The translations under genes and the position numbers were made by a program. Under the pieces are notes generated by a model. That model worked only from the letters and a program-made list of their open reading frames with translations, searched no databases and was not told the DNA's origin. DNA of 64,000 nucleotides from Oscillospiraceae bacterium (GTDB taxonomy: Bacteria > Bacillota > Clostridia > Oscillospirales > Oscillospiraceae), in NCBI GenBank assembly GCA_902795045.1, contig CADBJU010000017.1, positions 1 to 64,000 on the forward strand, in the 5' to 3' direction. Shown here piece after piece: positions 4,786 to 62,357 of the stretch (positions are counted from its first letter, which is position 1; each line of letters starts with the position of its first letter).

Positions 4786-4815
4786 AAAGACGTATTCAGA
4801 AATGGAGATAATAAA

Positions 4816-9281: not shown

Positions 9282-9328
9282 GCTTTGACGTCATAGACTT
9301 CATATTGTCCTCAGCCTCACAAAAATAC

Positions 9329-9851: not shown

Positions 9852-9853
9852 GC

Positions 9854-9993: not shown

Positions 9994-10116
9994 TCCACGA
10001 CTGAATAGTAATGAAATTTGTTGGATAATATCTCAGGAACACTTGCGCTGTATTTGATCATATGTTATGCTCTTTGTCAGAGAAACAGAAACGGCGCATG
10101 TCGGGGGAGTACATAC

Positions 10117-12360: not shown

Positions 12361-12485
12361 GCCCCTGAGCTGTAAAGAGTGAATGGAAGCAGCCAACCCA
12401 CACCTGAAGATGACTTTTCCTTATCAACAGATATGACGAACTTGAACAAGTGCATAATTTATCATAGAGCAGCTCTGTCTTTGAC

Positions 12486-12514
12486 TTGACAGAAACAGCA
12501 AATAGGGATAAAGT
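12486..12514 (+). promoter_or_regulatory. Promoter of the exopolysaccharide operon
   Basis: TTGACA at 12486-12491 and TAAAGT at 12509-12514 are 17 bases apart, upstream of the nucleotide-sugar dehydrogenase. A TATAAT at 12534 lacks a good -35. The AT-rich 12361-12563 gap holds nothing else clear. Confidence 0.5.
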
Positions 12515-12563
12515 AATAAAAAGTGTATAAATGTATAATATGGTGGATTTGGAGTAATTTTCC

Positions 12564-25794: not shown

Positions 25795-25958
25795 GATACT
25801 ATCCCCTGATAGAAACCAAACAGTCCTTCCGGTAAAATTTGCGCCATGCTTCGTTGAAGCCCTTGACCATATATCTCCATTATGCTCTGCGGGCTTCGCC
25901 TTGCCTGACACAAATTTTACGCGGAATTCCTTGTCTGTTTTCTATCAGTGAATAGTAT
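25795..25958. mobile_element. 164-base MITE (family 1) with 20-base terminal inverted repeats
   Basis: ATACTATCCCCTGATAGAAA (25795-25814) pairs with TTTCTATCAGTGAATAGTAT (25939-25958) at 18 of 20 positions. The terminal TA on both sides may be a TA target duplication, as for Tc1/mariner/IS630-type elements. A second, left-truncated copy of its right half is at 49922-50002. It has no coding capacity of its own. Confidence 0.75.
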
Positions 25959-25974
25959 AAACAGGAGCATCACC

Positions 25975-46431: not shown

Positions 46432-46520
46432 TTTATTTTGATTCCTTTCCCTCAATCTCAGCAGCAGAAACCGCATTCGGTCGGGCAAACTCAAATGACG
46501 TTTTCCTCACAATTTCAAAT

Positions 46521-46549
46521 ATTTTAATATTACGAGGAAATAATGTCAA
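46521..46549 (-). promoter_or_regulatory. sigma-A promoter of the amino-acid ABC operon
   Basis: On the reverse strand TTGACA (46549-46544) and TAAAAT (46526-46521) are 17 bases apart. Confidence 0.7.
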
Positions 46550-46655
46550 CTGAAAACCGGGCCGTTTTCCTGCTGCAGTCTCAACTAAGCTTTAGAATCA
46601 ATACCGCTGACTGTTCCGATACTCCCGGACTTGATTGCGATTGTTCGATATACTC

Positions 46656-46685
46656 TTGCGTATTACCATCGCTGACGTGTATAAT
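46656..46685 (+). promoter_or_regulatory. sigma-A promoter of the esterase gene
   Basis: TTGCGT at 46656-46661 and TATAAT at 46680-46685 are 18 bases apart, with GTG before the -10 hexamer. ATG 46713 follows. Confidence 0.6.
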
Positions 46686-46712
46686 GGAGAAAAAAGAAAG
46701 GCGGATTCAGCT

Positions 46713-47507
46713 ATGGCATCTGGAAGAATGGAGTTTCACGCACAGACCATCATGCAGCACGCAAGCTTCAGTTTTGTGCTGCCCAATGACGTTGAGATGG
46801 CGGAGGTCAGGGAACCCCGGCATTATGACCGTCCGACAAAGACGCTCATACTCCTGCATGGCCTGACCGGCACGGATACGGACTGGCTTTATGGCGGTGT
46901 AGCTCAGGATATGGCGATCCAGTACAACCTTGCGGTTTTCATGCCCGCCGCGGGGAACAATTTCTATCTTGATCGGGGCTATCCCGGCGGCGACTGGGGA
47001 AGCTTCGTCGGTGAAGAGCTCCCCGATTACATACAGAAGGTCTTCGGCTATTGCAATCGACGGGAGGATACCCTGATCGGCGGACTGTCTATGGGCGGCT
47101 ACGGGGCGCTGCACACGGCGCTGAATTATCCGGAGCGCTTTTCCGGCTGCGTTGCGCTCTCTGCTGCCCTGCGCATCCGTGCGATCGCCGAAGGGAGACA
47201 GGACGGCGTTATACCGAATGCCATGCTCCGCGACGTATTCGGAGATCCTGACAGCCTGCTCAAGTCAGACCGCAACCCGGAGTGGCAGTACCGCCGCTTG
47301 AAGGGAAAACAGATCCCCGCCATCTATATGGCCATCGGCACGGAGGACCATCTGTATTCCTGCAATCAGGAGTTTAAAAGCTTTCTGGCGGAACAGAAGG
47401 CGGACTTTTGCTATGAAGAGGGGCCCGGAGGACACTTCTGGAGCTTTTGGAATGCGTATCTGCCGCGCGGACTGGACTGGCTGCTGCGCGATGAAACCAT
47501 CTCATAA
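46713..47507 (+). CDS. Esterase family protein (FrmB/esterase-D-like alpha/beta hydrolase)
   Basis: A 264-residue alpha/beta hydrolase. It has the nucleophile elbow GGLSMGGYGAL, an acid in the MAIGTEDHLY strand region and a catalytic histidine in GGHFWSFW near the C-terminus, the arrangement of the esterase D / S-formylglutathione hydrolase / acetyl-xylan esterase family. There is no signal peptide, so it is cytoplasmic. The substrate is unknown. The start ATG 46713 is chosen for AAAGGCGG at 46697-46704; ATG 46728 is a weaker alternative. Monocistronic, divergent from the ABC transporter. Confidence 0.85.
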   Translation: MASGRMEFHAQTIMQHASFSFVLPNDVEMAEVREPRHYDRPTKTLILLHGLTGTDTDWLYGGVAQDMAIQYNLAVFMPAAGNNFYLDRGYPGGDWGSFVGEELPDYIQKVFGYCNRREDTLIGGLSMGGYGALHTALNYPERFSGCVALSAALRIRAIAEGRQDGVIPNAMLRDVFGDPDSLLKSDRNPEWQYRRLKGKQIPAIYMAIGTEDHLYSCNQEFKSFLAEQKADFCYEEGPGGHFWSFWNAYLPRGLDWLLRDETIS

Positions 47508-47630
47508 CGGACACAGAAATCAGACAGACAGTATTTGAAGCGCTGAAGTTTGGGTAATGAGGCATAAGGCAGATAGCTGTGGCTTCAATTCACGATACGC
47601 TGGGAAAAATGATATAGTGAAGGAGTTTGT

Positions 47631-47855
47631 TTGAGAATGAACGAACTATCCCGAATCATTATAGAAAGATACTGCATGAGCCATAAATCGGCAAAAAGCA
47701 AAAGGCTTTCCTATTTACATGAATTATCGTATGATATGAGCGCCGTCGGAACAGATGACGACGCTGTCTTCCTTGAGCGCGCGATCGAAAGGGAAAAGGA
47801 TCCCGAACTGCGGGAAGCCTTGCAGGATCTGGATGATTTCCTGTTCGGGTTGTGA
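47631..47855 (+). CDS. Hypothetical 74-residue acidic protein
   Basis: Not recognised. It starts at TTG 47631 behind AAGGAG (47620-47625), or at ATG 47637. It is helical and charged, with a basic first half (HKSAKSKRLSYLHELSYDM) and an acidic second half (ERAIEREKDPELREALQDLD). GATATAGTG near 47611 may be a -10. It stands alone, 148 bases before the AAA/PDDEXK-like gene, which has its own promoter. A small regulatory protein is possible but nothing specific is seen. Confidence 0.5.
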   Translation: MRMNELSRIIIERYCMSHKSAKSKRLSYLHELSYDMSAVGTDDDAVFLERAIEREKDPELREALQDLDDFLFGL

Positions 47856-47939
47856 AACAAAAAGCGCACAAGCAAGAAAGGCGACAGTCTTCGCCCATTC
47901 GGCCGGTCTTCTTTAACGAATACACAAGCCTGATTTCTC

Positions 47940-47968
47940 TTGAAATGAAGCGGGAAAGCAATTATAAT
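47940..47968 (+). promoter_or_regulatory. sigma-A promoter of the AAA/PDDEXK-like gene
   Basis: TTGAAA at 47940-47945 and TATAAT at 47963-47968 are 17 bases apart, 35 bases before ATG 48004. Confidence 0.7.
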
Positions 47969-48003
47969 CGCATCAAAAGAACGGACACACGGAGGCGTTT
48001 CAG

Positions 48004-49650
48004 ATGGGGACCTATTTGAATCCGGGTAAAGCGGCTTATCAGATGGCTGTAAATTCTGAAATCTTTGTAGATAAAACAGAAATGATACAGTATATAAACA
48101 GCGTTGTAAATACACAACAGCGCTTTGTCAGCGTTTCCCGTCCGCGCAGATTCGGCAAGACAATTGCCGCGGATATGCTCTGCGCCTATTATGACAGATG
48201 TGCGGATAGCCGTGACTTATTTGAAAAACGAAAGCTGGCGCAGAACACAGGCTGGGACGAGTGCCTTGGGAAATTCGATGTTATACGGCTTGTGATGACT
48301 GATTTCTTTAAGCTTGGCAAGACGCTTGAAGACGCGTTGGCTGCAATAAAAAAACGTGTGCTGCTCGAGCTTGAAGAAAGCTACCCGGGTACGAAATATG
48401 ATGCGAGTGATTTTCCATACAGTCTTGACAGGTTTTACAGGAAATCCGGGATACCCTATGTAATTGTCATTGACGAATGGGACGCGGTGTTTCGCATCTG
48501 GAAGGATAACAGTGAGGCCCAGCGTCTCTATCTTGATTTTCTCCGTGACTGGCTGAAAGACAAGCCGTATGTAGCCCTTGCGTACATGACCGGCATCCTG
48601 CCGATCAAAAAGTACGGCCAGCACTCGGCCTTGAATATGTTCACGGAATACTCCATGATGGCCCCCCGCCAGCTTGCACCATACACCGGTTTTACGGAAG
48701 AGGAAGTAGAGAATCTGTGCAGCAGATATGGCCGGGATTACGCCCGCATGAAGGACTGGTATGACGGATATGTAGTCAGTGACATCATACCGCCTGATCC
48801 AAATCATGAAGAACTGAAAACAACAGGTCAATCACCGACGGCGAACAGATATGCGCTGTACAGCCCGCTCTCGGTCGTGGAATCCATGACCACTGGCGTT
48901 ATCAAGGACTATTGGAACAAAACCGAAACCTATGAAGCGCTGGCGGAATATATCCGAAAAGATTACGACGGCCTGAAGGAAGCGGTAGCGCTGCTCATGG
49001 ACGGCGGACGGCTGGCTATCGACACTTCAACCTACGAGAATGACATGACCACGTTTACAGGCCGGGATGATGTACTGTCGCTCCTGATCCACCTGGGTTA
49101 TCTCGGCTTTGACGATGAACGAAGCGAGGTCTTCATACCCAACCGTGAGATCCTGGATGAATTTAAGACCTCCACGAAGGGAAAGGAGTGGGTCAGCACC
49201 TTCAAATCCTTTGAGACTTCGCAGGAGCTTCTGGAGGCCACATGGAGCGGCGATGAAGAAAAGGTGGCGGAGCTGGTCGAGGATGCGCATAATCAGGCCG
49301 GAAACAAGACCTACCACGATGAAGCTGCCCTGAGCTATGGGATCCAACTGGCCTATTATGCTGCCAGGAAGTATTACACGACGATACTTGAACTGGACAC
49401 GGGCAAGGGCTATGCGGATGTGGTCTATCTGCCGGCGCCTCAGTATGCTGAAAAGCCCGCCCTGCTGATCGAGTTGAAATACGGACACAGTGCGGACATC
49501 GCCATGGATCAGATCAGGCGGCAGAAATATCTTGACAGGTTTGAACACTATAAGGGAAACATCCTTGTGATCGGCATCAACTATAACCGGGACCTGCCTT
49601 CTGATGATCCCAAATTCAAGCATCACAGCTGCAGAATAGAGAAATGGTGA
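48004..49650 (+). CDS. AAA-ATPase-like protein with C-terminal PDDEXK-like domain
   Basis: A 548-residue protein of the large bacterial family in which an AAA-ATPase-like domain is joined to a PDDEXK nuclease-like domain (former DUF1703). The N-terminus has the family pattern YFVDKTEMI-like (EIFVDKTEMIQYIN) and a P-loop variant SRPRRFGKT, Walker B-like YVIVIDEWDAVF near residue 160, and a C-terminal GYADVVYLP … LLIELKYGHS corresponding to the D and ExK motif. These genes are abundant in gut Clostridia and Bacteroidetes, often in many copies, with unknown function; mobile-element or defence roles are proposed. It lies at the left edge of the defence-like island. Codon use is intermediate between core genes and the island. 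Confidence 0.8.
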   Translation: MGTYLNPGKAAYQMAVNSEIFVDKTEMIQYINSVVNTQQRFVSVSRPRRFGKTIAADMLCAYYDRCADSRDLFEKRKLAQNTGWDECLGKFDVIRLVMTDFFKLGKTLEDALAAIKKRVLLELEESYPGTKYDASDFPYSLDRFYRKSGIPYVIVIDEWDAVFRIWKDNSEAQRLYLDFLRDWLKDKPYVALAYMTGILPIKKYGQHSALNMFTEYSMMAPRQLAPYTGFTEEEVENLCSRYGRDYARMKDWYDGYVVSDIIPPDPNHEELKTTGQSPTANRYALYSPLSVVESMTTGVIKDYWNKTETYEALAEYIRKDYDGLKEAVALLMDGGRLAIDTSTYENDMTTFTGRDDVLSLLIHLGYLGFDDERSEVFIPNREILDEFKTSTKGKEWVSTFKSFETSQELLEATWSGDEEKVAELVEDAHNQAGNKTYHDEAALSYGIQLAYYAARKYYTTILELDTGKGYADVVYLPAPQYAEKPALLIELKYGHSADIAMDQIRRQKYLDRFEHYKGNILVIGINYNRDLPSDDPKFKHHSCRIEKW

Positions 49651-49654
49651 ATGA

Positions 49655-49861
49655 TTTGTAAAGGACCAAATTTATAATAAAAGTGAAGGCATCGAGACGG
49701 AAATCGGCTTCATGCGGGGCGACGCAGGCAGAGACGGCAGGCTTACCCAGCACGAGCTGTTCATGTACATCAAGAACTGCGAGGACACGATGGAGGGCGG
49801 CATCGTCCAAAACGCGTAGACCTATCCGCTCAACAGCGAGTATGTGCCGTTCATAAACTAA
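49655..49861 (+). pseudogene. Remnant of an EF-hand-containing protein C-terminus
   Basis: In one frame the text reads GIETEIGFMRGDAGRDGRLT then QHELFMYIKNCEDTMEGGIV, a TAG stop at 49817-49819 and, still in frame, TYPLNSEYVPFIN with TAA at 49859-49861. DAGRDGRLTQHE fits a 12-residue EF-hand loop. The layout resembles the end of caspase-like (peptidase C14) proteins of Clostridia, but that is a guess. No start or upstream part is present. Confidence 0.4.
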
Positions 49862-49921
49862 TGCTTATGGGTATTCGTCACGCTTTATGGAAGCAAGACG
49901 ATACAGAGCGTGCGAGGACGA

Positions 49922-50002
49922 CATTATGCCCGGCGGGCTTCGCCTCACCTGACACATATTTTGCTCGGAATTCATTGTCTGCTTTCTGTCAGGGAATAGT
50001 AT
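49922..50002. repeat. Truncated copy of the family 1 MITE (right half)
   Basis: The sequence from CATTATGCCCGGCGGGCTTC to CTTTCTGTCAGGGAATAGTA is about 85% alike to 25877-25958, including the right terminal repeat. The left half is missing. Confidence 0.7.
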
Positions 50003-50483
50003 GAATGCTCTGGAACTGGCAGGCAAAACCATATACAAAGATGTATCAAAGCATTAAGGCGTCTGGAAACACATTGACACGGGTTTCCAGACGCCATTTA
50101 TTGAAAACGCTTGCATCAAGTTATACTGTTCTGATAGTAGGGATAGATTTCACGAAATTATCGAACGCCTTGAAGCCCTCTGCAACTTGGGTGGCCAATA
50201 TCTCGAAGCCTATGCACTTCTGCCTTACGTCTTTGGATTCGCCGAAGAAAAGGATCTGCGAAGTTTGGCAGAATCAGCAGCATCTTGCTATGGAGATGTT
50301 AAGAAGTCTGGGAATGACTGTGCCTTACTTGGGGTCATTCTGCTGCTACTCATGGGAGAAATACCCAGCAATTTCGCTAATACTCTATGTCTTCTGACTA
50401 CGGGATATGAGAACCAAGACTGCTTGTTGAAGAAACGTGTAAAACCTGCTTTCAATAAGCTTTTTCTGAGAAAGGCATGCTAA
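50001..50483 (+). pseudogene. Interrupted ORF upstream of the RADAR-like operon
   Basis: From ATG 50001, which is made by the MITE end, 18 codons (ending IYKDVSKH) reach TAA at 50055-50057. The same frame continues open to 50483 (through IIERLEALCNLGGQYLEAYA, FGFAEEKDLRSLAESAASCY and a hydrophobic LLGVILLLLMGEIP). TTG 50187 could start a 98-residue product but lacks a good ribosome site. A perfect 13-pair hairpin (50058-50070 with 50083-50095) stands right after the TAA and may be a terminator instead. No family recognised. It ends 16 bases before the RADAR promoter, so it is probably a leftover, not a fourth operon gene. Confidence 0.4.
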
Positions 50484-50498
50484 TGGGACCAGGAAAGC

Positions 50499-50527
50499 TT
50501 GACAGAGAAGAACTCTGACGCTATAAT
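50499..50527 (+). promoter_or_regulatory. Perfect-consensus sigma-A promoter of the RADAR-like operon
   Basis: TTGACA at 50499-50504 and TATAAT at 50522-50527 are separated by exactly 17 bases. The predicted start is near 50534, with GGAGG at 50563-50567. No operator palindrome is obvious around it, so constitutive expression is likely. Confidence 0.85.
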
Positions 50528-50577
50528 GATACATAATGACGCAAAAATGAAACTTTTACGACGGAGGTGTATTGTTC

Positions 50578-52560
50578 GTGAAATATGAAGATGAGCGCAT
50601 ATCAAATGATGACAGCCTCAGCTTGAACAACACTTCTCACCGACTCTTACAGGGTCCAACTTTTCGGAAGCTGAAAGAGTTCTATGCCAACAGTTGGAAG
50701 GACCCGGAAAACGATGAATACATGTATAGGGTGTATTTCGCCCAGCAGAGTTCAAATATAAATGCACTTGTATATAAATTATATTTGGAAATAGCCGATG
50801 AACAGGAACTTTATCGGATAAAACGAGTGCATGACAATACATTTCTCACACAGCACGCTATGTACGGAAAAGCACGTGAACTTGCCGCTTATTATTCCAG
50901 ATACAGGCACTTCCCCAAAATACTAATGGTTGATGAACTGCTTATTACAGGGCGCAATATTGCGGAGTTCCTGTATAAACTGTTGAATATGATTTTCACG
51001 TGTCTCGAACGCGATTATGCAAAATTCCATTATAACTATCGAAGAGTGTATTATGCCCTTCTTGATGCAGCGGATATTCTCGTTTTTGCACAGAGCAAAG
51101 ATCCAAAAATACTCGATGAACAGATTCTTGATCGCATTAATACTAACTGTACGATGGAGACGGCGGAGTGGCGCGCCTATGTGCAGAGAATCACTGAGAT
51201 CATGACACGTACTCATTTTGTTGAGAATACATCGTTTACACCATCTTTTTTGATGGAACTTGATATGTATAGATCTTCTGTTCAGCGAAATGCAGAATTT
51301 CCAACTGAGTGGAAGCGCGGAATATGGCGATACCGCAGAAAGGACACAACAATATGGCAGAAAAGTTTCTTTAATCATGAAGGCAAACTTATAGCCCAGG
51401 CTGCAATTCGGTGTACGGTCTATCTGGATGAGAACACAGTTTCGCTGACTCCGTATCTCTTCAGAATGCGCGGCTCAGAGTTTGACCATTTTCATCTTCG
51501 GCATCATTTAATAGATTTTTTCCACACTTATGATCTATTTATGCTTGCAGATATACTTGATGACGATTCGGTATACCAACTTTCCTCACAAATGCTTGTG
51601 TCAACTTTAGATTCCATCTTTGTATTCTTTATGTTTCTCTCAGATCAGCTAGCAGGTATTGGCTTAAAGGTCCAGGACGACCTCGATAGGGTTGGACAGT
51701 ATTTTGACAGCTGTGCCAACATCAACGGGGAATTGAAAATGCTTACTGAGATGAATAACAGGGGAGCGAAGATAAGGGCGCAGTTGTTCAATATCATAGA
51801 AGAGGACCTGTCTTATGCTGCCCCGGGTGATTATGAGTTCTCTTTGCGCATGGATCGGCACCAGCGTGACAGTTATATCCTTGCGGCGGAAAAGCTGCTT
51901 TTCCGTTGGGATCTCCAACAGCAGGAGAACAATCTCTATCGCCGAATCAAACAGATTGACTTTGAACCATGGAGCAGTTTCCGCGATGACCTGTTCGGGC
52001 TTAAACAATATCTGGAAAAAGTGAAAGTGCCGGGAATGTCTTTGACGGAAAGAATTGGAGCGCTCCTAGTTGAATTGCAGTGGGGAAACGTGGTTTTGAC
52101 TATGAGTGATAAGGAGAGCGGATGCTTTTATCTGAAGGTTAACGAAAACACAGGCATCACCGGGATCATGCACTATTACCGTTTTTTGCCGGCGCTTGCT
52201 CTGGTGGAAGAGGTATGCGAGAAAAACGGATTATCTGCCAAAAGCAGGATACGGCGCTTTGGAGCATATCTCGATAAAAAAGAGAATCGGGATTTGTATG
52301 AGTTGTTATTTGATTCTCTCTATGACGAGCTTTCAAGAGCAGGACTACGGTTTGGCGATTGGCTCAATTTGTCCATTCACCGTTTGGATCGGCCAAGACC
52401 GGAACGCAATGTTCGCTCTTGTCAAGAGTGGACAGGAAGAATGTGGCCTGAGGAGGAATTGGATGCGATCCACAGTTTTTCATCAGGAGAGTATATTACC
52501 TGGGAGACTGAACAGAGATACAATTATTTTTTGGATGCGATCCGTTTCTTCAAAGACTGA
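50578..52560 (+). CDS. PRTase-like protein, first gene of the RADAR-like operon
   Basis: A 660-residue protein of unknown function. Residues about 18-135 look like a phosphoribosyltransferase-type fold; ILMVDELLITGRN (about 115-127) matches the PRPP-loop pattern of hydrophobics, D-E/D, then TG. The remaining 520 residues are mostly helical with acidic and aromatic stretches (FEFSLRMDRHQRDSYILAAE-like region near 420) and no motif I can name. GTG 50578 is chosen ten bases after GGAGG; TTG 50572 (two residues longer) is too close but possible. It is transcribed with the RdrA-like and RdrB-like genes, 61 bases upstream of the former. AT-richer than flanking core genes. PRTase-like domains have been noted in computational surveys of bacterial conflict systems; a sensor or nucleotide-handling role is inferred. 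Confidence 0.7.
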   Translation: MKYEDERISNDDSLSLNNTSHRLLQGPTFRKLKEFYANSWKDPENDEYMYRVYFAQQSSNINALVYKLYLEIADEQELYRIKRVHDNTFLTQHAMYGKARELAAYYSRYRHFPKILMVDELLITGRNIAEFLYKLLNMIFTCLERDYAKFHYNYRRVYYALLDAADILVFAQSKDPKILDEQILDRINTNCTMETAEWRAYVQRITEIMTRTHFVENTSFTPSFLMELDMYRSSVQRNAEFPTEWKRGIWRYRRKDTTIWQKSFFNHEGKLIAQAAIRCTVYLDENTVSLTPYLFRMRGSEFDHFHLRHHLIDFFHTYDLFMLADILDDDSVYQLSSQMLVSTLDSIFVFFMFLSDQLAGIGLKVQDDLDRVGQYFDSCANINGELKMLTEMNNRGAKIRAQLFNIIEEDLSYAAPGDYEFSLRMDRHQRDSYILAAEKLLFRWDLQQQENNLYRRIKQIDFEPWSSFRDDLFGLKQYLEKVKVPGMSLTERIGALLVELQWGNVVLTMSDKESGCFYLKVNENTGITGIMHYYRFLPALALVEEVCEKNGLSAKSRIRRFGAYLDKKENRDLYELLFDSLYDELSRAGLRFGDWLNLSIHRLDRPRPERNVRSCQEWTGRMWPEEELDAIHSFSSGEYITWETEQRYNYFLDAIRFFKD

Positions 52561-52621
52561 ATATTCCACGTTTACTTTGAAAATGCGGAACTTTTTTAGG
52601 AAGATGGGCAGGAGAAAGAAA

Positions 52622-54946
52622 ATGGGAACAATCGATTCAAATACGGTGATCCATATTCTCGCACAGCATGACAATCGGCTGGCTGATGATCAGAATATTC
52701 TACAGGAGGACCATATTCTAACATCTGTATTTCATAACGCACTGACTGCGCTCAAGGATATTCTGGATAGGTCGGACAGCTTGGTGTCAAACCTGAATGA
52801 AATCTCCAAGCGCAGAGCGCTGTACGGTTACGGGTCAAACATTATCGCGTTTTGCGCGCCGCGCGGTCAGGGAAAGACAAGTGCCATGCTTTCTTTTTCC
52901 CGTGCCCTTGAAAACTGCCACAGGGGAATGGAACAATCACGGCAGCATGAGCTTTGGAAAGAAGTCACAAAAGATCGGAATTTCCATGTTATGCCCCCGA
53001 TTGATCCGACATTGCTCAGTGACTGCGAGAGCGTGATTGAATTGATTCTTGCATGGCTTTTTCAACAGATCAATGAGTGCTGGAAGAAGAACGCCATAAG
53101 TTCTCAGGATGAATGTGAAAAAATCAGACTGTTAGAGCACTTCCAGAGCTGCCGCCAATGCCTCTACCAGCGCAAGGGCGGGAAGGGAAAGGATTTTGAT
53201 GATTTGGGCGCCTTTTTACAATCCGGCAATGTATTTGATCTGAAATACCATCTGTGCGAGATTATTGAAGCTTATTTCAGGCTTAACAAGGGCAGCGCTC
53301 CAGGCAATAGTTATCTGATTATCCAGCTTGATGATACGGACATGCAGCTTGAAAACGCTTATGATATTTTAGAGGAGGTCAGGAAATATCTTTCTGTACC
53401 GTGTACAGTTGTTCTCATGGCAACATATTTGCGGCAACTCAGGCTGCTTATATCAACACACTATGAAAAAATGTTCGGCTCCGAATCCAGTCAGGGCTTC
53501 GGCATGGATACGCCTGCCCTGATGGCGGCACGCTACATTGATAAATTGATACCTGCGTCGCAGACAATACATCTCACGTCAATTCGCCGCCGACGTGAAG
53601 TGACAGGCTTGTTTCGTACCCGGGAGCTGGTGGAATGCGGGGAACAGGTTCCCGCATATAATGATGTCGATATTGAAGTTCCGCTCATGGATGTCATTTA
53701 TGAAAAAACCGGGCTCGTTTTTCTTAAGCACAAGAGCTATTTGAATAATTTTTTTCCGCAAACGCTCCGCGGGTTAACACATCTCTGCCATATGCTGGAT
53801 GCTATGGAAACACCAAAGAAAACGGAGCGTCCGAAAAGATTGGATAAAGAAGAGCTGGAAGAATACTATAAAAGTTATATTGAATACAAAAAGAAACTAC
53901 AGGATAACCTGATTACCTTTGAAAGCTATTTTTATAACGACTGGTGTCCCGGGCGGCTGACAGAAAGAGATCAGAGAATAATTCTGTCCCTCCACAGGGC
54001 TTATCCTGCGATTCAATTGAACCTTACAGTCAATCTCTTGGACAATCGGGTACAAAACCGGCCTGAGCGGAGAAAAATTGATCACTATTCATATTTGGAT
54101 GTACTCGCCTATATATCATATTTTAATAACAACGCACAGAGCATGGAGGACTATGCGCTCCTCTTTGCCCTCAGCGTCCACTATTCTATTCAAATCAACA
54201 AGCTAATCAATGAAGATGAGATCGACAGCTTAAACAGTAAAATAGCAGCTTTCGATGATAATCCTACGGTCGAGATGGAAGAGCCGCTGATTATGGAATA
54301 CAAGCGGATGAAGGATTTTTTCAAAGCGATACTGGATAGACAGGATTTAAAAAAACCGACCGTTAAAGAATACCAGAGCTTGGCAAAAGCGGAGAATATT
54401 AGCCGGATGGGAGAAGACGCCGCACGAGAAGCCTTCAATCGGTTATTCTGCTTCCTCTGCAATATTTTTCAATATAATTTTAGAGACATCACGTTTCAGA
54501 GCCGAGAAGCAAAGGAAGAGACGGCATGCATTATTTATAAGCATGTTGCCTATATCTGCGCAAATTGCGAGGTTCAACACGCGATCTTACATTATTACAT
54601 AAAAAAACAAGAGGACGAAAGTAGAAAGAAAGGCGCTTACGACAGGGAGAACGAGACCGATCCGATTATTAATCTCCTGAGAAATGTGAAAAAAGCCAGC
54701 GGTATCAGCGTTGGCGAAAAAAGTATCCTTGATGCTCTGGATGATATAGAAAAGGATATCTCTACAGAAGAATCACAGGAAAAAATCAATAGAAGTGTTG
54801 GGAAGAGCGATTTGGGTATTGAAAATGGAGAGGATGAAACGGAAGAATTTGAGGAAGCTGACGTTTCGGAAGACGATGGAGAATCGCTGGAGAATAGCAG
54901 TAACCCGCCGTTTGAATCCCCCAAAATAAAAAATGTCAATCAATAA
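52622..54946 (+). CDS. rdrA: RADAR-type P-loop ATPase (RdrA-like)
   Basis: A 774-residue ATPase. Walker A is APRGQGKTSA near residues 79-88 and Walker B is LIIQLDDTDM near 232-242. A long helical region follows, and the last 60 residues are acidic and disordered (NGEDETEEFEEADVSEDDGE). In known RADAR anti-phage systems the ATPase RdrA forms large rings and works with the deaminase RdrB. The direct neighbour here is an RdrB-like deaminase, the main reason for the call. ATG 52622 is preferred for AGGAG at 52610-52614; the frame is open back to 52196, inside the upstream gene. The 3' end overlaps the deaminase gene by 14 bases. A different STAND-like ATPase cannot be excluded without a profile search. 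Confidence 0.8.
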   Translation: MGTIDSNTVIHILAQHDNRLADDQNILQEDHILTSVFHNALTALKDILDRSDSLVSNLNEISKRRALYGYGSNIIAFCAPRGQGKTSAMLSFSRALENCHRGMEQSRQHELWKEVTKDRNFHVMPPIDPTLLSDCESVIELILAWLFQQINECWKKNAISSQDECEKIRLLEHFQSCRQCLYQRKGGKGKDFDDLGAFLQSGNVFDLKYHLCEIIEAYFRLNKGSAPGNSYLIIQLDDTDMQLENAYDILEEVRKYLSVPCTVVLMATYLRQLRLLISTHYEKMFGSESSQGFGMDTPALMAARYIDKLIPASQTIHLTSIRRRREVTGLFRTRELVECGEQVPAYNDVDIEVPLMDVIYEKTGLVFLKHKSYLNNFFPQTLRGLTHLCHMLDAMETPKKTERPKRLDKEELEEYYKSYIEYKKKLQDNLITFESYFYNDWCPGRLTERDQRIILSLHRAYPAIQLNLTVNLLDNRVQNRPERRKIDHYSYLDVLAYISYFNNNAQSMEDYALLFALSVHYSIQINKLINEDEIDSLNSKIAAFDDNPTVEMEEPLIMEYKRMKDFFKAILDRQDLKKPTVKEYQSLAKAENISRMGEDAAREAFNRLFCFLCNIFQYNFRDITFQSREAKEETACIIYKHVAYICANCEVQHAILHYYIKKQEDESRKKGAYDRENETDPIINLLRNVKKASGISVGEKSILDALDDIEKDISTEESQEKINRSVGKSDLGIENGEDETEEFEEADVSEDDGESLENSSNPPFESPKIKNVNQ

Positions 54947-57497
54947 AGAGATTTACGCAAAGGCGATAGATATTCTTTTTCGCAGAAGCTCACCTGAACG
55001 TTTGATACAGCGATTGCTGAATGATTTTCGCCCAATAGACTGGGATTTTATCGCAATGCAGTTCCTGGATTGTGCGGCGGAAACACTCGAAGGCGCTTCA
55101 TATGATGAGCAAATGCTTATCCTGGAGGAGCTGAAGAGAATTTGTGAAACCGAAAAGATCACACCTCTACCGCCTTACCCTGTTCTCAGCAATTTCGCGG
55201 ATAATGTCATCAAATGGAAAGATGGAGTACCCGTTTGCAGGTGTAATCAGGCACTTTTATGGCGGAATGCGTATCTTCCGGTGGGACAGGATCTGTTCAT
55301 CTGTGCTTGGCTGGCAGAACAGAAATTGGAAATGCAGGACATACACTTTTCATGGCCGGCAGTTATTTCCACAGATGATGAAATGCTTGGAAGACTGATT
55401 CGTGATGCGTCTGATAATCACCTTCATCTCTATGCAGGCGCACGGATATTTGATCTGTCCTGGGCAAGCCTGATGAATCATCCCTCCGAAATTGTTCAGA
55501 CGGATAAACTGAATAAACTGCTGCAGGTGCATATCAGTCGGGGCCCCGATACAAATGTATGGCCCATGAGCCGAAAAATGATATATGCCGCATTTCTTCG
55601 CTGCAAGCTTTTTCAATTGCTTGAAGCAGGATCCCTGAATATCGGCGCCGAACTCAGAGCTTTTGATCGCGCTTATACGTCAGATGAGATAGAAGCCAGG
55701 AAGCTTGAAACGGAGCTTGAACGGCTGCGTTTCCTTTATGGGGACACATTTGCCCATCTGGAACAAGGCAATGTATGTCTTGATTACGCGTTTTCAAAGA
55801 AGCATCTTTCTGCTGAGAAGGAAAGAGACTTTCGCCTGCTGGCCGGCGAACGCATCTTGCTTTACCGTACGTTTAAGGAATCCGCTTCAGGACGCCTGAA
55901 TCCTTTTGAACAGTGGGTTTTCTATCTGTATTTGCTTCTCAAGGCCCAACTGCGCGGAGAGCTTGTACAGGTCAACAAACAAACTGGCTTCCATAATTTT
56001 GCGCAATATGATGATCGCAAGAAAACACTTTGGAAAAAACACGAAGCCTACAAAAAAGAGAACCTGCGGCAGTCATTGAATGCCTCACTCAGAGAGTACA
56101 GGATTGCGGCTTTGGAGGGGAGATTGTGTCCGAAGAATTCCGCAGCTGAAGACATGCAGCTGATATACGGAATTGACAAAGCTAAGCTCTTTTTCGATCA
56201 GATAGATGATGAAACGCGCAATGAGTTTCGGAATTGGAATCCGCTGCTCGCGGTGAGCAGAAAAGGTGAAAATGATAACTATTGCTTTATCATGCACTTC
56301 CCGAAAGAAACGGATGAATGCGTCGACAGTTCATTAAAAGCCTATCCCCGATATCGGCATCAGAAGGCACGCGCCAACTACAGGATCCAGGCAATTGCGC
56401 TGGCAGAAGCTCTCAGCAATTCCCCGTATTTATGCGAGCGTATCCGTGGGATTGACGCATGTGCGCAGGAAATCGGATGCCGCCCGGAGGTGTTCGGGCC
56501 GACATTTCGTTTTCTGCGCTCTTTTAAAACTGAGTGGTATTATAGAAATCATTATGTGGAAAGTAGAACGCCCAACCTGGGGATTACATATCACGCAGGA
56601 GAAGATTTTCTTGAGCTGGCCGATGGGCTGCGCGCGATTGATGAAGCAATCCGTTTTCTGGGCATGAAGAAAGGGGATCGGCTCGGACATGCCCTGGCGC
56701 TTGGCATCCAGAAGAATGTGCATTATGCGCGAAAGGGCCAAGTTGCTATTCTTACAAAACAGGACTTGCTGGATAACTGCGTTTGGCTCATTTTCAGGAG
56801 TAAAGAATTGCAAATACGACTGCCAAAGACGCTTAAAAAAAGTTTGATCCAGGAGGCAAGAAGTTGTTTTTCACAGATTTACCCCGGTGTTGTCTTTCGT
56901 GTAAAGGAATACTATCACAGTATGCTCTTACGTGGTGATGATCCACGTTGCTATCGCAACCAAGCGTTTCAAAGAATAGTAGAATTGGATTATTTTGACC
57001 GTTTTCAGATAAATGACGCAGTTGAGCTCAGCCAATATCGCAAGAATACCATTGTGACGAAGTTTTACTTTCTATATCATTACTGGCTGGATGCCAAAAG
57101 AAAAGGTGAAGAAAGCGTTGTGTGGACGATTCCGCCTGGCTACCAGAAACTGCTTGGCAAAATGCAAAAGGCTATGCGGAAGGATATACACAAAAAAGGA
57201 ATCAGCATCGAGTGTAATCCATCGTCTAATGTCCTGATCGGAACATTTGGCAGCTATCAGCGGCACCCTATTTTTTGCTTTAATAATAAAGGTATAAAAT
57301 ATAAACGCCAAGGACCGCAGATGCAAGTCTCTGTAAATTCAGATGATCCAGGTATTTTTGACACTTCGTTGGAATTTGAATATGCGTTATTGGCAAATGT
57401 TCTTCGTGAGAATGGCCACACGAATAAAGAAATAGAGAAATATCTGCGAAGAATTGTTGAAATGGGCAGGGATCAAAGCTTTATGTATTTGCCATGA
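54933..57497 (+). CDS. rdrB: RADAR-type adenosine deaminase (RdrB-like)
   Basis: An 854-residue protein of the adenosine deaminase superfamily, more than twice the length of metabolic Add (about 340). The catalytic set is complete: HLH at residues 163-165 in DNHLHLYAGA, TYHAGED with H554 and catalytic E557, RLGHALALG with H586, and VNSDDPGIF with D804-D805. The extra length lies before the HxH motif and as a large insertion between about 180 and 540, as in RdrB, which forms a shell-like dodecamer and converts adenosine bases in RNA or (d)ATP to inosine on infection. It starts 14 bases inside the RdrA-like gene without a good ribosome site of its own, so translation is probably coupled. Last gene of the operon. 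Confidence 0.87.
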   Translation: MSINKEIYAKAIDILFRRSSPERLIQRLLNDFRPIDWDFIAMQFLDCAAETLEGASYDEQMLILEELKRICETEKITPLPPYPVLSNFADNVIKWKDGVPVCRCNQALLWRNAYLPVGQDLFICAWLAEQKLEMQDIHFSWPAVISTDDEMLGRLIRDASDNHLHLYAGARIFDLSWASLMNHPSEIVQTDKLNKLLQVHISRGPDTNVWPMSRKMIYAAFLRCKLFQLLEAGSLNIGAELRAFDRAYTSDEIEARKLETELERLRFLYGDTFAHLEQGNVCLDYAFSKKHLSAEKERDFRLLAGERILLYRTFKESASGRLNPFEQWVFYLYLLLKAQLRGELVQVNKQTGFHNFAQYDDRKKTLWKKHEAYKKENLRQSLNASLREYRIAALEGRLCPKNSAAEDMQLIYGIDKAKLFFDQIDDETRNEFRNWNPLLAVSRKGENDNYCFIMHFPKETDECVDSSLKAYPRYRHQKARANYRIQAIALAEALSNSPYLCERIRGIDACAQEIGCRPEVFGPTFRFLRSFKTEWYYRNHYVESRTPNLGITYHAGEDFLELADGLRAIDEAIRFLGMKKGDRLGHALALGIQKNVHYARKGQVAILTKQDLLDNCVWLIFRSKELQIRLPKTLKKSLIQEARSCFSQIYPGVVFRVKEYYHSMLLRGDDPRCYRNQAFQRIVELDYFDRFQINDAVELSQYRKNTIVTKFYFLYHYWLDAKRKGEESVVWTIPPGYQKLLGKMQKAMRKDIHKKGISIECNPSSNVLIGTFGSYQRHPIFCFNNKGIKYKRQGPQMQVSVNSDDPGIFDTSLEFEYALLANVLRENGHTNKEIEKYLRRIVEMGRDQSFMYLP

Positions 57498-57639
57498 GTG
57501 GATGGTCAAAAAGCAGTGTAAACACCGATATGGATGACTCTGCCAGCGGACAATGTGCTAATCTTTGCCAGCAAATATGAAACCGTACTGCCAAGCAAGG
57601 AGGCTCTGCAAAAAACTGCTTGCCGAATAGATTGCTTGA

Positions 57640-57746
57640 GGCTCATTTCGTGGTATAGTGATGCTTGTAGTTGAGGGAGAGCCCGATTTATCAGGCATTT
57701 TTCCTCCTTTCTCTCAACTGCCGTGTCACTTTGCCACAAATGAGCC
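57640..57746. repeat. 107-base imperfect palindrome downstream of rdrB
   Basis: GGCTCATTT … AGTGA … AGTTGAG (57640-57677) pairs with CTCAACT … TCACT … AAATGAGCC (57713-57746), with inner GGAGA/TCTC. It could be a small MITE, a structured RNA or a terminator for the RADAR-like operon. The rest of 57498-57824 has no gene. Confidence 0.55.
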
Positions 57747-57824
57747 GCAGTCAGGTGCAGTTTATGAGGGATAAATCCCTGTTGCAAACAACACCGGCAA
57801 TGAGAAGTTGTATCTTCTCAACAA

Positions 57825-58496
57825 CTATAATAAAACGGGACCTCTGCCGTGGCTGCTTTCCTCAAAAACAAGCCTGGCAGAGGTCCCAATTTCTTGACTT
57901 GCTGAACTGCACCGAATCCCGCAGCCCGTTGGTATTACTTGAGTTTCATTTGTTTCACTCAGCTCCACATCCCACTGGACAGCGGTCATGCCGAGAGAAT
58001 TGACCGCCTTGATCACGTGATCGTCGTACTCCCCGTAAGGACAGCGGAACAGGGTTGGGCGCACACCGGTGATGGCTTCGATCTTATCGTTGCAGGCGGA
58101 GATGTCTGATGTAATCTCATTCGTACTGAGCGCGGAGAAGTGTGCATGGCTGGAGGAGTGGTTCATGACCTCGTTGCCTGCTTCTGCAAGAGCCTGGACG
58201 GATTCGGGGTATTTATCAACCCAGTCACCGACAACGAAGAATGTGGTATTCACACCGTATTGATCCAGAATATCAATGAGTGTCTGTGTATCTTCGTTGC
58301 CCCAGGCTGCGTCAAAGCTCAGGGCAACGATTTTTTCATCCTGCTGCACACAGTAGACGGGAAGCTCCCGCTTCGATGCCGAAACTCCAACCACCGCGGG
58401 TGTGTTCACTGCCCAGAAGATCAGCCCGACTGCCGCCAACATCATTAGTGCCTGCAATACTGCGCCGTGCCGACGCAGAATATGGTTGCTCTGCAT
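57825..58496 (-). pseudogene. PdaB-like polysaccharide deacetylase, C-terminally truncated
   Basis: The first about 175 codons encode an N-terminal membrane anchor and a NodB domain of the sporulation PdaB type: EKIVALSFDAAWGNED (metal aspartate), TTFFVVGDWVDKYPE, NEVMNHSSSHAHF (HxxxH), LFRCPYGEYDD and TAVQWDV. After that the expected end (the strand with the LxH motif) is missing; the frame continues in unrelated residues (VIPTGCGIRCSSASQEIGTS) and passes through a strong terminator hairpin before stopping at 57825. So the 3' end was replaced, probably by a deletion at the RADAR island border. AAGGAGGG stands before the reverse ATG at 58496. Confidence 0.7.
57838..57884 (-). terminator. Hairpin terminator inside the truncated deacetylase tail
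   Basis: GGGACCTCTGCC (57838-57849) and GGCAGAGGTCCC (57873-57884) form a perfect 12-pair stem. On the reverse strand it is followed by GTTTTATT. It could also stop rightward transcription from the RADAR-like operon. Confidence 0.65.
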
Positions 58497-58647
58497 GGTT
58501 CATCCCTCCTTCGTAAAAACATATGCGGAATGAACGCGGCTTACCCCATATAAGAAGGGAGCGTCAAACGGGAGGTCAAAACGGTATACCAGCAGGGAAT
58601 AAAACCGTAGGCTGATACCGAGCCAGCGGCAAGAAAACGGAAAGCTC

Positions 58648-58676
58648 TTGAATAATGGGTCAAAAATGAATATAAT
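58648..58676 (+). promoter_or_regulatory. sigma-A promoter of the opp operon
   Basis: TTGAAT at 58648-58653 and TATAAT at 58671-58676 are 17 bases apart, about 100 bases before oppD. Confidence 0.7.
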
Positions 58677-58775
58677 ACATATTACAATTCAGGCTGCTGA
58701 ATCGCTTTTACCTATATAAAAAACGCTTAACAATGCACAGACAGCGGCAGACTTCATACAGAGGGGGTATACGAC

Positions 58776-59852
58776 ATGGCCGATACGGCTGAGATCGTTC
58801 TGGAGGTCAAGAATCTGGATATCAGCTTCCGCTCCGCCGGAGAGACAGTACACGCCATCCGCGGCGTAAATTTGATCCTGCGCAGGGGAGAGACGGTGGC
58901 CCTTGTGGGCGAATCCGGGTCCGGAAAATCCGTGACGATGAAGGCCGCCATGGGTATCCTGGCGGATAACGCGAAAATAAACGGCGGCAGTATCCTGTAC
59001 CGGCCGGAGCCGGGCGCGGAGCCGGTGGATCTTCTGACAGCCGACCCCGCGTGGGTCCGGAAGAATATCCGCGGCAGGAGCATCGCCATGGTCTTTCAGG
59101 ACCCGATGACCTCCCTCAATCCTACCATGACCATCGGCGCGCAGCTCGTTGCCGCCATCCGGGCGCATGAGACCGTCAGCCGCAAGGAGGCCCGGGACCG
59201 GGCGCTGAACCTGCTTGCCGAAGTGGGCATCACGGAGCCTGAGCGCCGGATGCGCCGGTATCCGCACGAGTTTTCCGGCGGCATGCGTCAGCGTATTGTG
59301 ATCGCGATTGCGCTCTCCTGCAATCCGAACCTTCTGATCTGCGACGAGCCGACAACGGCGCTGGATGTGACGATACAGGATCACATCCTCGAGCTGATCG
59401 TGAGCCTGCAGGAAAAGCGCGGCCTGTCCGTCATTTACATCACCCACGATCTGGGCGTGGTGGCCCGCGTGGCAGACTATGTGAACGTCATGTACGCCGG
59501 GAAGATCATCGAGACCGGCACCATCATCGACGTGTTCTATGACCCGCGGCACCCCTACACCTGGGGATTGCTGTCGGCCATCCCGGACACGGAGAGCGGC
59601 GACACCCTCTATTCCATTCCCGGCACGCCGCCGGTTTTGACAAAGGAGCCTGTGGGAGACGCCTTTGCTCCGCGCAATCCCTACGCTCTGGAGATCGACT
59701 TCAAGGAAGAGCCGCCCATGTTCAAAATCTCCGAGACCCATGCCGCCGCGACCTGGCTGCTGGACGAGCGCGCGCCCAGGGTGCCGAGACCCGAGGCGCT
59801 TGAGGCGCGTATTCAGAAAATGAGAAAGGAGGCTGCGGACTATGTCAGATGA
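58776..59852 (+). CDS. oppD: Oligopeptide/dipeptide ABC transporter ATP-binding protein (OppD/DppD type)
   Basis: A 358-residue ATPase. Walker A GESGSGKSV near 47-55, Q-loop VFQDPMTSLNPTMTIG, signature FSGGMRQRIVIAIALS, Walker B LLICDEPTTALDVT and H-loop THDLGVVARVADYV are complete. The C-terminal oligopeptide-specific extension has RHPYTWGLLSAIPD; the cysteine-rich iron-sulphur motif of some members is not evident. Starts at ATG 58776 behind GAGGGGGT. It overlaps oppF by 11 bases. Forms the ATPase heterodimer with OppF. Confidence 0.92.
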   Translation: MADTAEIVLEVKNLDISFRSAGETVHAIRGVNLILRRGETVALVGESGSGKSVTMKAAMGILADNAKINGGSILYRPEPGAEPVDLLTADPAWVRKNIRGRSIAMVFQDPMTSLNPTMTIGAQLVAAIRAHETVSRKEARDRALNLLAEVGITEPERRMRRYPHEFSGGMRQRIVIAIALSCNPNLLICDEPTTALDVTIQDHILELIVSLQEKRGLSVIYITHDLGVVARVADYVNVMYAGKIIETGTIIDVFYDPRHPYTWGLLSAIPDTESGDTLYSIPGTPPVLTKEPVGDAFAPRNPYALEIDFKEEPPMFKISETHAAATWLLDERAPRVPRPEALEARIQKMRKEAADYVR

Positions 59853-60744
59853 AAAGAAAAAACTGCTGGATGTGCAGGATCTGACGATGCGTTTCGGGCA
59901 GAACACCGTCGTGCGCAAAATCAGCTTCCATATCAACGAGGGGGAGACCTACGGCCTTGTCGGCGAATCCGGCTCCGGCAAATCCACCATCGGAAAGTGC
60001 ATCATCGGCCTCAACAAGCCAAGTTCCGGGACGATCCGCTTCGGCAACGAGGTTTTGAAGCCGGGCCAGAATGTGCGCGAGATCCAGATGATCTTCCAGG
60101 ATCCCATGGCCTCCCTCAATCCGCGCAAAAAGGTAAGCGATATTGTCGGCGCGGGGCTGGATATCCATAAGCTCTGCAAAACGCCGCAGGAGCGCTCCGA
60201 GCGCATCGGCACGATGCTCGAGCGGGTGGGCCTTTCCCGTGATCAGGGGGAGCGCTATCCCTCTCAGTTTTCCGGCGGCCAGCGCCAGCGTGTGGGCATC
60301 GCCCGCGCACTCATCATGAACCCGCGCCTCATCATCGCCGACGAGTGCATCGCGGCGCTCGATGCGTCCATCCAGGCCCAGGTGGTGAATCTCATCCGGC
60401 AGATCCAGCTGGAGACCGGCACCTCCTTCCTGTTTATCTCCCACGACCTCAGCATGGTACGCTATCTGTCCGACAGGATTGGCGTGCTGCACAGGGGCTT
60501 TCTGCTGGAGACGGGGACACCGGACGAGCTCTTTTCCCACCCGGTCCATCCCTATACCCGAAACCTGCTGGCCTCCAAGCCCTCGCCGAACCCCATCGTT
60601 CAGCTCCGACCGGAGACGCGCTACGACTATGAGACCTCCGGCATCGTGTACGAGAACGGGACCTGGCACACAGTTGATGGGAGCGAGACCCATCAGGTGC
60701 TCTGTACCGACATGGAATTTGAGAAATGGGGGCTCGGGAAATGA
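59842..60744 (+). CDS. oppF: Oligopeptide/dipeptide ABC transporter ATP-binding protein (OppF/DppF type)
   Basis: A 300-residue ATPase, partner of OppD. Walker A GESGSGKSTIGKCI, Q-loop FQDPMASLNPRKKV, signature FSGGQRQRVGIARALI, and H-loop SHDLSMVRYLSDRIGV are present. The Walker B region reads LIIADECIAALDASIQ, with C-I-A in place of the common P-V-S/T-A, a small deviation just after the catalytic glutamate. The C-terminal VHPYTRNLLASKP is the oligopeptide-family extension. Overlaps oppA as ATGA. Confidence 0.92.
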   Translation: MSDEKKKLLDVQDLTMRFGQNTVVRKISFHINEGETYGLVGESGSGKSTIGKCIIGLNKPSSGTIRFGNEVLKPGQNVREIQMIFQDPMASLNPRKKVSDIVGAGLDIHKLCKTPQERSERIGTMLERVGLSRDQGERYPSQFSGGQRQRVGIARALIMNPRLIIADECIAALDASIQAQVVNLIRQIQLETGTSFLFISHDLSMVRYLSDRIGVLHRGFLLETGTPDELFSHPVHPYTRNLLASKPSPNPIVQLRPETRYDYETSGIVYENGTWHTVDGSETHQVLCTDMEFEKWGLGK

Positions 60745-62357
60745 AAAGATGTCTGATTCTGCTGCTCCTGTGCTGCCTGCTACTGACGGGCTGTGCGGCC
60801 CGAACGGATTCCCTCAAGGGGCAGGAGCTGAATGTCGCGCTTTCGCTGTATCCCCTCACCATGGACGCGCAAATGCAGGTGGACGGGGGATCGGCGCAGT
60901 ATCTCTCACCAATGTGCGGCAAGCTCTTCCGGCTTGACCCGGAGAAGGGCTATGTGCCGGAGCTGGCCGAAAGCTTTGAAATCTCTGAGGACGGCTGCAC
61001 CTACACCTTCCGCCTCAGGGAAGGCCTCCGTTATTCCAACGGCGACCCCATAGACGCCCAGGATTTTGTCGATGCCTTCCGCCGCATGGCCGATCCTCTC
61101 ACGGCAAGCAGCGCGATCTATCTCCTTCAGGATCTGTGCCGGTTGAAAAACGTGGACGCGGTCAACGCCGGAACGATGGAGCCGGAAAAGCTCGGCGCCT
61201 ATGAGGCGGACGACCGGACCCTCGTCATCGAGCTGGAGCAGCCCTGCCCGTATCTGCCTTATGTGCTCGCCATGGAGCAGTGCTCCCCCTATAACCGCGC
61301 CTTTGCCGACGCGTGCGGCAGGGATTACGCCACAAGTCCCGAGACGCTGCTGTCCAGCGGCCCCTTTATCGTAGACCGCTATGAACCGCTGGCCGTGCAG
61401 GTACACTATGTAAAAAATCCCAATTACATAGACGCGGACCTTGTGAAGCTCAGCGGCATCACCCTTCGCCAGGTGAGCAATACACAGCAGGCGATGATGA
61501 GCTATCAGACGGGAGATCAGGACGTGATCGCGACCGGCGGAGAATACGCGGTCCTGTCCCAGGGCGACCCCTGTCTTCTCCAGACTCCCGGCGGCATGAC
61601 CGCTTTTATAGGCGGCAACTATGAAAGCTGCAAGGCCTGGCAGAACCGGAACATCCGCATGGCACTCAGCTTTGCCCTCAACCGGGAGAGCATTGTGAAG
61701 GACTTCCTCCGGGCGGGATATACGACGAGCACAAGCGTTGTCCCGACGGGGATGTGCCGGGAGGCCGACGGCAAGGATTTTGCCGCCGATCCCGCACGGT
61801 ACAAAGATACCTGCGCCTATGACCCGGAGCGGGCCGCGGAATACTGGAAAAAAGGCATGGAGGAGCTGGGAGTCCAGACACTTGAGCTGGAATTTCTCTC
61901 CGTAAGCGGCAACCAGAAGTTCGTGGAGATTTTGAAGGATCAGTGGGAGCGCACGCTGCCGGGCTTTACGCTCAACGCGCGTCTGGTCTCGAGCGCGCAG
62001 TTTAATGATCTGAGAGTCAAGGGAGAATTTGATGTCTATATGATAGCCTGGGGCGCGGACTATCCCGACCCGAACGCCTTCCTCGCCATCTTTGAAAGCG
62101 GCTCTCCCATCAATAATTCCCGCTACACGAACGCGGACTTTGATAAGCTCCTGCACGATGCGGCGCTGGAGCTGGATCCCGGAAAGCGCTTCGACATGCT
62201 GCATCAGGCGGAGGACCTGTTCATGGCGGATCTGGGCGCGATCCCGGTCTATGTACGAGGCGGCGCGTTTCTGATCAACGAGAATGTGAAGGGCGTGGCC
62301 CCGCATTTCAGCGGCATACAGCTCATGTTCAGTTTTGCGGAAAAGGAGGAGGCATGA
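60741..62357 (+). CDS. oppA: Oligopeptide-binding lipoprotein (OppA/SBP family 5)
   Basis: A 538-residue extracytoplasmic lipoprotein. Signal peptide with LLLTGCAA (lipidated cysteine near 17), then the family 5 binding fold: a two-lobe protein with the signature region ESFEISEDGCTYTFRLREGL (split here as LAESFEISEDGCTYTFRLRE), YSNGDPIDAQDFVDAFRR, and AWGADYPDPNAFLAIFESG in the second lobe. It delivers peptides to the OppBC channel. ATG 60741 overlaps the oppF stop; an ATG at 60726 in the same frame would spoil the signal peptide. It is followed by oppB with a four-base overlap. Confidence 0.92.
   Translation: MKRCLILLLLCCLLLTGCAARTDSLKGQELNVALSLYPLTMDAQMQVDGGSAQYLSPMCGKLFRLDPEKGYVPELAESFEISEDGCTYTFRLREGLRYSNGDPIDAQDFVDAFRRMADPLTASSAIYLLQDLCRLKNVDAVNAGTMEPEKLGAYEADDRTLVIELEQPCPYLPYVLAMEQCSPYNRAFADACGRDYATSPETLLSSGPFIVDRYEPLAVQVHYVKNPNYIDADLVKLSGITLRQVSNTQQAMMSYQTGDQDVIATGGEYAVLSQGDPCLLQTPGGMTAFIGGNYESCKAWQNRNIRMALSFALNRESIVKDFLRAGYTTSTSVVPTGMCREADGKDFAADPARYKDTCAYDPERAAEYWKKGMEELGVQTLELEFLSVSGNQKFVEILKDQWERTLPGFTLNARLVSSAQFNDLRVKGEFDVYMIAWGADYPDPNAFLAIFESGSPINNSRYTNADFDKLLHDAALELDPGKRFDMLHQAEDLFMADLGAIPVYVRGGAFLINENVKGVAPHFSGIQLMFSFAEKEEA

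Follow-up and report, generated by a model that had tools for sequence, protein, structure and literature searches.

Analysis of a 64,000-nucleotide stretch of DNA from an Oscillospiraceae bacterium (contig CADBJU010000017.1, positions 1 to 64,000; hereafter the window) revealed three tandem genes that very probably constitute an operon of the RADAR anti-phage system, in which rdrA and rdrB are preceded by a gene for a 660-residue protein. This leading protein is likely, with good confidence, to be a real component of the operon. Taking the evidence as a whole, we lean towards an acquired, divergent RADAR operon of a clostridial clade, equipped with a dedicated third subunit that may act as a sensor or licensing subunit.

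Assignment to RADAR

Profile searches placed the ATPase within the RdrA family and the deaminase nearest to RdrB, as an initial annotation, made from the bare sequence, had anticipated. RdrA was the sole NCBIfam match for the ATPase (E 9e-20, score 70.7), and in PADLOC it matched RdrA models only (best E 1e-10). For the deaminase, NCBIfam RdrB ranked first (E 2e-54, 185 bits), far ahead of the metabolic adenosine deaminases (best 49 bits), and PADLOC likewise put RdrB first. The features from which the RADAR reading had been drawn, namely the P-loop and acidic tail of the ATPase and the HxH, HAGE, LGH and SDD motifs of the 854-residue deaminase, are all present, and the reading is further supported by matches to solved structures and by retention of the zinc, catalytic and Walker residues.

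Comparison of the RdrB clade profile with the PDB returned the deaminase chains of 8fnw and 8hr7 (E 3e-58 for 8fnw), while the RdrA clade profile returned the ATPase chains of the same two entries (E 1e-20 to 1e-21, with 8hr7 at 1e-21) and the ATPase 8fnu (E 1e-25). Both 8fnw and 8hr7 contain an ATPase chain together with a deaminase chain; we take the three entries to be the RADAR structures deposited for E. coli and S. suis. Within the clade, which is delimited below, the RdrB zinc and catalytic residues H163 and H165 (HxH), H554 and E557 (HAGE, 554-557), H586 (LGH) and D804-D805 (SDD, 803-805) are invariant in 16/16 members, and they are also invariant in an alignment with seven plasmid loci. 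The same holds across the 16 RdrA sequences for Walker A (R81-G82-x-G84-K85, within the P-loop RGQGKT) and Walker B (D237-D238); R383, likewise invariant, is perhaps sensor 2, judging by its position. These motifs correspond to H152/H154/H498/E501/H530 of E. coli RdrB and to Walker A and B of E. coli RdrA as given in PMC9994260 (in part), a correspondence drawn by motif.

The RdrA and RdrB models each match all 16 clade members. Both window proteins score well under the NCBI equivalog cut-offs (70.7 against 600 for RdrA; 185 against 800 for RdrB), and we therefore describe the system as a divergent RADAR; these annotation cut-offs were not counted as a defining feature of family membership. 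The validated RADAR systems themselves share 22-28% identity in their conserved parts (PMC9994260, in part). Since the window proteins and, judging by the best E-values among the 16, the other clade members fall below the NCBI cut-offs, this branch of RADAR is probably under-counted. The nearest RdrB in our set, by both tree path and identity (42%), belongs to locus L012 in an Oscillospiraceae metagenome-assembled genome, and no RdrB relatives were found in viral contigs.

Operon architecture

The three genes lie on the forward strand: the leading gene at 50578..52560, rdrA (an AAA+ ATPase of 774 residues with an acidic C-terminal tail) at 52622..54946 and rdrB (the adenosine deaminase) at 54933..57497. 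Translation of the leading gene most likely begins at GTG 50578, ten bases past a GGAGG (50563-50567); the alternative TTG at 50572 would give 662 residues. For rdrA the most likely start is ATG 52622, the mechanical open reading frame (ORF) opening earlier, at 52196. With these starts, 61 bp separate the leading gene from rdrA, and rdrA and rdrB overlap by 14 bp in tandem on the same strand.

A sigma-70-type promoter, TTGACA-N17-TATAAT, precedes the leading gene (50499..50527, forward strand) and matches the consensus at 12/12 positions. A scan of 49600-58000 reported 22 sites, of which only that at 50499 reached 12/12, the remaining 21 matching at 9/12. Shuffled sequence averages 14.8 such sites, so only the 50499 promoter stands out. 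In the other loci, the best site in the 250 bp preceding the leading gene matched at 12/12 in L016, at 11/12 in L014, L021 and L090, and at 8-10/12 in the other 11. The description of three co-directional, tightly spaced genes behind one strong promoter is thus borne out, and the gene order recurs in 15 other loci. There are no tRNA genes in the window, and no Rfam match reached the gathering score across 46000-62000.

Distribution of the leading gene

Scanning genomes with an RdrB alignment yielded 223 relatives, of which the best 80, chosen by closeness to the window RdrB, were examined together with the window and seven plasmid loci (n=88). Because the loci were picked in this way, the counts below do not tell how common the leading gene is among RADAR systems in general. 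Homologues were sought by blastp and then with an iterated profile, by which a very divergent homologue may be missed in loci scored as lacking one. They were found in 16 of the 88 loci (the window, 15/80 genome loci and 0/7 plasmid loci), in every case directly upstream of rdrA and co-directional with it. The 15 homologues from genome loci measure 594-723 residues; with mechanical start codons, the leading gene and rdrA overlap by as much as 41 bp or lie up to 231 bp apart. The homologues share only 13-23% identity with the window protein, which points to an old and diverse family.

All 16 carriers fall within one 19-row clade of the RdrB tree, with a Shimodaira-Hasegawa-like approximate likelihood-ratio (SH-aLRT) support of 97, and none of 500 label shuffles needed as few changes as the observed distribution. 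This is a quick tree of 86 rows (L070 and L074 were dropped as too short) that carries a long-branch warning. In the three remaining clade rows (L011, L013 and L024) rdrA is cut by the contig start; the leading gene is therefore present in 16/16 clade members that can be judged. The layout had already been remarked on as unlike the minimal rdrAB pair, and among the loci examined the leading gene proves to be fixed in one RADAR clade. Scanning of five loci showed that what lies further upstream is unrelated (SecY, a glycosyltransferase, an epimerase, a PnrA-like gene and one gene of no family). L019 carries its set of three between the genes for SecY and adenylate kinase, which are usual neighbours.

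Direct searches with the leading protein gave no match in Pfam or PADLOC and two chance-level matches in NCBIfam, and no relatives were found in plasmids, viral contigs or 290 other genomes of the class. A 16-row profile of the family, run against 391 genomes of the class, recovered the window and an 89-position stretch in G162 (E 1.3e-4), which was taken as chance. Derivation of the leading protein from RdrA or from the tetratricopeptide-repeat (TPR) proteins described below was rejected, there being no profile match in either case (E 0.52 and 0.22).

Fold of the leading protein

The leading protein comprises an N-terminal domain (approximately residues 23-213), a beta-rich stretch to about residue 300 and a mostly helical remainder. 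There is moderate support for a phosphoribosyltransferase (PRTase) fold in the N-terminal domain. In each of two VIA structure comparisons, the 50 best-listed rows are PRTases or kin such as PyrR, and the closest resemblance is to hypoxanthine-guanine PRTases. A profile comparison with 24 PRTases aligned 30 columns in register over the loop that binds phosphoribosyl pyrophosphate (PRPP), with E 0.0018. In a viral structure library a phage hypoxanthine-guanine PRTase came out on top at E 0.037, and nothing reached E 1e-3. When compared by profile, four PRTases encoded elsewhere in this genome (four of eight loci, chosen by loop motif) gave no match, and Pfam Pribosyltran did not reach its cut-off, only one of the 16 members matching at all (E 0.26). 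A SAVED protein, 7rwm, gave a profile match at E 0.01 spanning the same PRPP-like loop, and SAVED proteins are not among the 50 best-listed rows of either structure comparison, which leaves room for a match further down.

The family alignment places codons 116-128 of the window gene (LMVDELLITGRNI; 50923..50961, forward strand) at the position of the PRPP-binding loop. Type I PRTases carry here an acidic pair followed by [ST]-G-x-[ST]. In the leading family the acidic pair and a G-R are each kept in 16/16 members, and position 124 is H in 14, Y in one and T in the window protein. The T-G-x-T/S phosphate loop of PRTases is replaced by H-G-R in 14/16 members and by Y-G-R in one, and reads T-G-R-N in the window protein. 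The window copy is itself unusual: the R-R pair of the other 15 members is Q-Q at residues 56-57, and it deviates at six of the ten leading-protein columns where 15/16 agree. By the same measure it deviates at 4/16 columns in RdrA and 8/37 in RdrB, and there too it is the commonest deviator. The ORF is intact; either the ligand of the window protein has changed or this copy has lost its ligand.

Proposed function of the leading protein

The RdrB shell of RADAR deaminates ATP and dATP to ITP and dITP (the inosine triphosphates), and RdrA docks onto it and stimulates the reaction (PMC9994260, in part). In RADAR the docked RdrA is a heptamer and the RdrB shell a dodecamer, and the spoiled nucleotide pool halts phage replication. 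By analogy with such systems, the window RdrB would form a shell that converts ATP and dATP in the same manner upon stimulation by docked RdrA, with the same effect on phage. The leading protein is proposed to use its PRTase-like N-terminal domain to bind a ligand that is nucleotide-like or phosphoribosyl in kind, while its helical C-terminal part may contact RdrA or RdrB. It would thereby decide when the deaminase is switched on, as a sensor or licensing subunit and not as a salvage enzyme. We tentatively prefer a sensor or regulator over other roles because of the fixed association with RADAR, its place as first gene of the operon, the conserved ligand-like loop and the large helical part.

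Four other explanations were weighed. The leading protein could be an antitoxin-like brake or an assembly factor, a ligand-free scaffold that quiets a toxic deaminase in uninfected cells. Overexpressed RdrB is toxic and drives up ITP even when no phage is present (PMC9994260, in part), the leading gene comes first in the operon, and a separate, mostly Lachnospiraceae clade has a TPR protein in this position, which is what exchangeable control subunits would lead one to expect. Conservation of the acidic pair and G-R loop in 16/16 members despite identities of 13-23% to the window protein suggests a ligand site instead, and we consider a brake rather unlikely.

An active PRTase, working on hypoxanthine or another base or simply consuming PRPP, could mount a second attack on the purine pool or repair it. 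The closest fold resemblance is to hypoxanthine-guanine enzymes, the substrate logic suits a system that produces inosine, and type III retrons are known to have PRTase-like effectors (PMC12548924, in part). The altered phosphate loop, the change from R-R to Q-Q in the window protein and the sub-threshold Pribosyltran match speak against catalysis, which makes this explanation less probable than a brake. It is less plausible again that the N-terminal domain is a Rossmann sensor of the SAVED/CARF type, through which RADAR would be switched on by a cyclic-nucleotide second messenger: CARF-fused adenosine deaminases activated by cyclic oligoadenylate do exist (PMC11645235 and PMC12669630, both in part), and 7rwm matches over the same loop, but the best-listed structural rows are uniformly PRTases or their kin. 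Finally, an ordinary two-gene RADAR with an unrelated passenger sharing its promoter would agree with the description of E. coli RADAR as two genes, each essential (PMC9994260, in part), and with the loss of several conserved residues in the window protein, but is strongly disfavoured, and very improbable, given 15 other loci with a homologue in the same place, its presence in every judgeable clade member and the unrelated genes further upstream.

Other genes at the leading position

A second, unrelated leading family was observed in 10 loci of a mostly Lachnospiraceae RADAR clade, where TPR proteins of 406-497 residues are encoded directly upstream of rdrA (L048 5687-7117, L054 126-1346, L056 2475-3872, L057 440-1684, L058 5602-7041, L060 2090-3448, L063 1436-2857, L064 5926-7197, L065 5481-6914 and L079 5509-7002). 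The carriers make up 10 rows of a 12-row RdrB clade, the two remaining rows being cut. Pfam TPR was detected in 4/5 sequences scanned, a profile matched designed TPR proteins at E 8e-30, and the N-terminus has a conserved stretch, 'KIIHD...FLAEFFR..GIFV.E'; none of 11 sequences had a PADLOC match at E 0.01. That TPR proteins fill the leading position here supports the notion that front-end subunits are exchangeable. We therefore entertain, as a more speculative extension of the sensor reading, a clostridial RADAR type built as a three-protein machine, in which a PRTase-fold protein drawn from purine salvage might license RdrA-RdrB on reading an infection signal that is a nucleotide or resembles PRPP; the TPR protein in the same slot of other clostridial RADARs would then point to modular sensing.

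Several further arrangements were noted. L054 contains two RADAR sets in series (126-10628): a TPR gene, rdrA, rdrB and a further ORF, then another TPR gene followed by an rdrA that the contig end truncates. The leading position is held in L088 (2608-4542) by a 644-residue protein with weak TPR matches and a start that by eye resembles a P-loop, and in L035 (5077-6885) by a 602-residue MORN-repeat protein. In the Polaribacter locus L055, an AbiV-type HEPN gene (6538-7263; Pfam E 1e-22) lies about 100 bp upstream of rdrA. On the Rhizobium plasmid of L005, a gene annotated as adenylosuccinate synthetase (12021-13622) lies about 900 bp downstream of rdrB; this enzyme would act on inosine monophosphate and may be of interest near a system that produces inosine.

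Genomic setting

The operon is an acquired island, probably gained horizontally. In the congener G811, the matches to window positions 49648 and 57818 lie 95 bp apart, which places the operon within an 8.2-kb island missing from that genome (49649..57817, no strand assigned). The G+C content is 41-48% in the operon, 45-56% to its left at 43-50 kb, and about 56-62% at 40-42.5 kb and past 58.5 kb. RdrB was found in one of 61 genomes of the genus, 24 of which pass the quality line, and in one of 398 genomes of a phylum sample, both times the window itself.

Near the left island edge, 49922-50002 is a dispersed repeat of about 81 bp with 17 matches in the genome, counting itself, and many in congeners; a second window copy lies at 25878-25961. 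Near the right edge, a stretch at 57640-57795 recurs at 82-89% identity in G811, G841, G823 and G821, on non-syntenic contigs. Repeats within the island are short two- and three-copy families and were dismissed as chance. Just left of the island (48004-49650) is a gene for an AAA-ATPase_like (PF09820) and PDDEXK_9 protein, with two related copies on one G811 contig. PF09820 is given for RdrA in PMC10952713 (in part); the window RdrA does not match PF09820 at E up to 1, and this neighbour does not match the RdrA models.

Comparison with known systems

In the mostly open-access literature covered, which includes passages of PMC13092281, PMC13327615 and PMC10952713 and leaves out the original 2020 description and the second 2023 structure paper, we found neither a report of a three-gene RADAR with such a leading gene nor one tying RADAR anti-phage defense to a phosphoribosyltransferase. 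The structure paper PMC9994260 (in part) leaves phage sensing by RADAR open and proposes the RdrA C-terminal domain as a possible sensor. A third protein present wherever visible in a clade offers a direct handle on RADAR activation, and it is suggestive that a fold resembling purine salvage stands beside a system flooding the cell with inosine nucleotides. If the proposal is right, RADAR sensing is modular, and its long-missing trigger could be approached through exchangeable front-end subunits.

Among systems that share single elements with the window operon, the CARF-fused adenosine deaminases Cad1/CAAD also use an adenosine deaminase in defence, converting ATP to ITP (PMC11645235, in part), and the PADLOC CARF_ADA model (605 positions) weakly matches the window deaminase (E 2e-5). 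In Cad1/CAAD, however, CARF is fused to the deaminase in a type III CRISPR setting, whereas the window has an 854-residue RdrB with an rdrA partner. Type III retrons resemble the window operon in that their anti-phage operon includes a PRTase-like protein (PMC12548924, in part), a likeness drawn by description; they are another system, and the retron partner is a reverse transcriptase.

RADAR itself is the closest relative. With the rdrAB systems of E. coli, Citrobacter rodentium and Streptococcus suis, the window operon has in common the tandem rdrA-rdrB arrangement, the pairing of an AAA+ ATPase with a large adenosine deaminase and the same catalytic motifs, and it differs from them in its divergence below the NCBI equivalog cut-offs and in being led by a third gene. 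Accessory genes are also found in rdrABC (Csx27) and rdrABCD (SLATT) (PMC7699616, in part), whereas the accessory here is a 660-residue protein encoded upstream of rdrA. A scan for SLATT, covering the leading gene and not the small ORFs downstream of rdrB, gave no Pfam match at E up to 10 in any of the 16 members. The new part is the leading gene, and we read the operon as a RADAR variant with a dedicated third subunit, tentatively a ligand-binding regulator.
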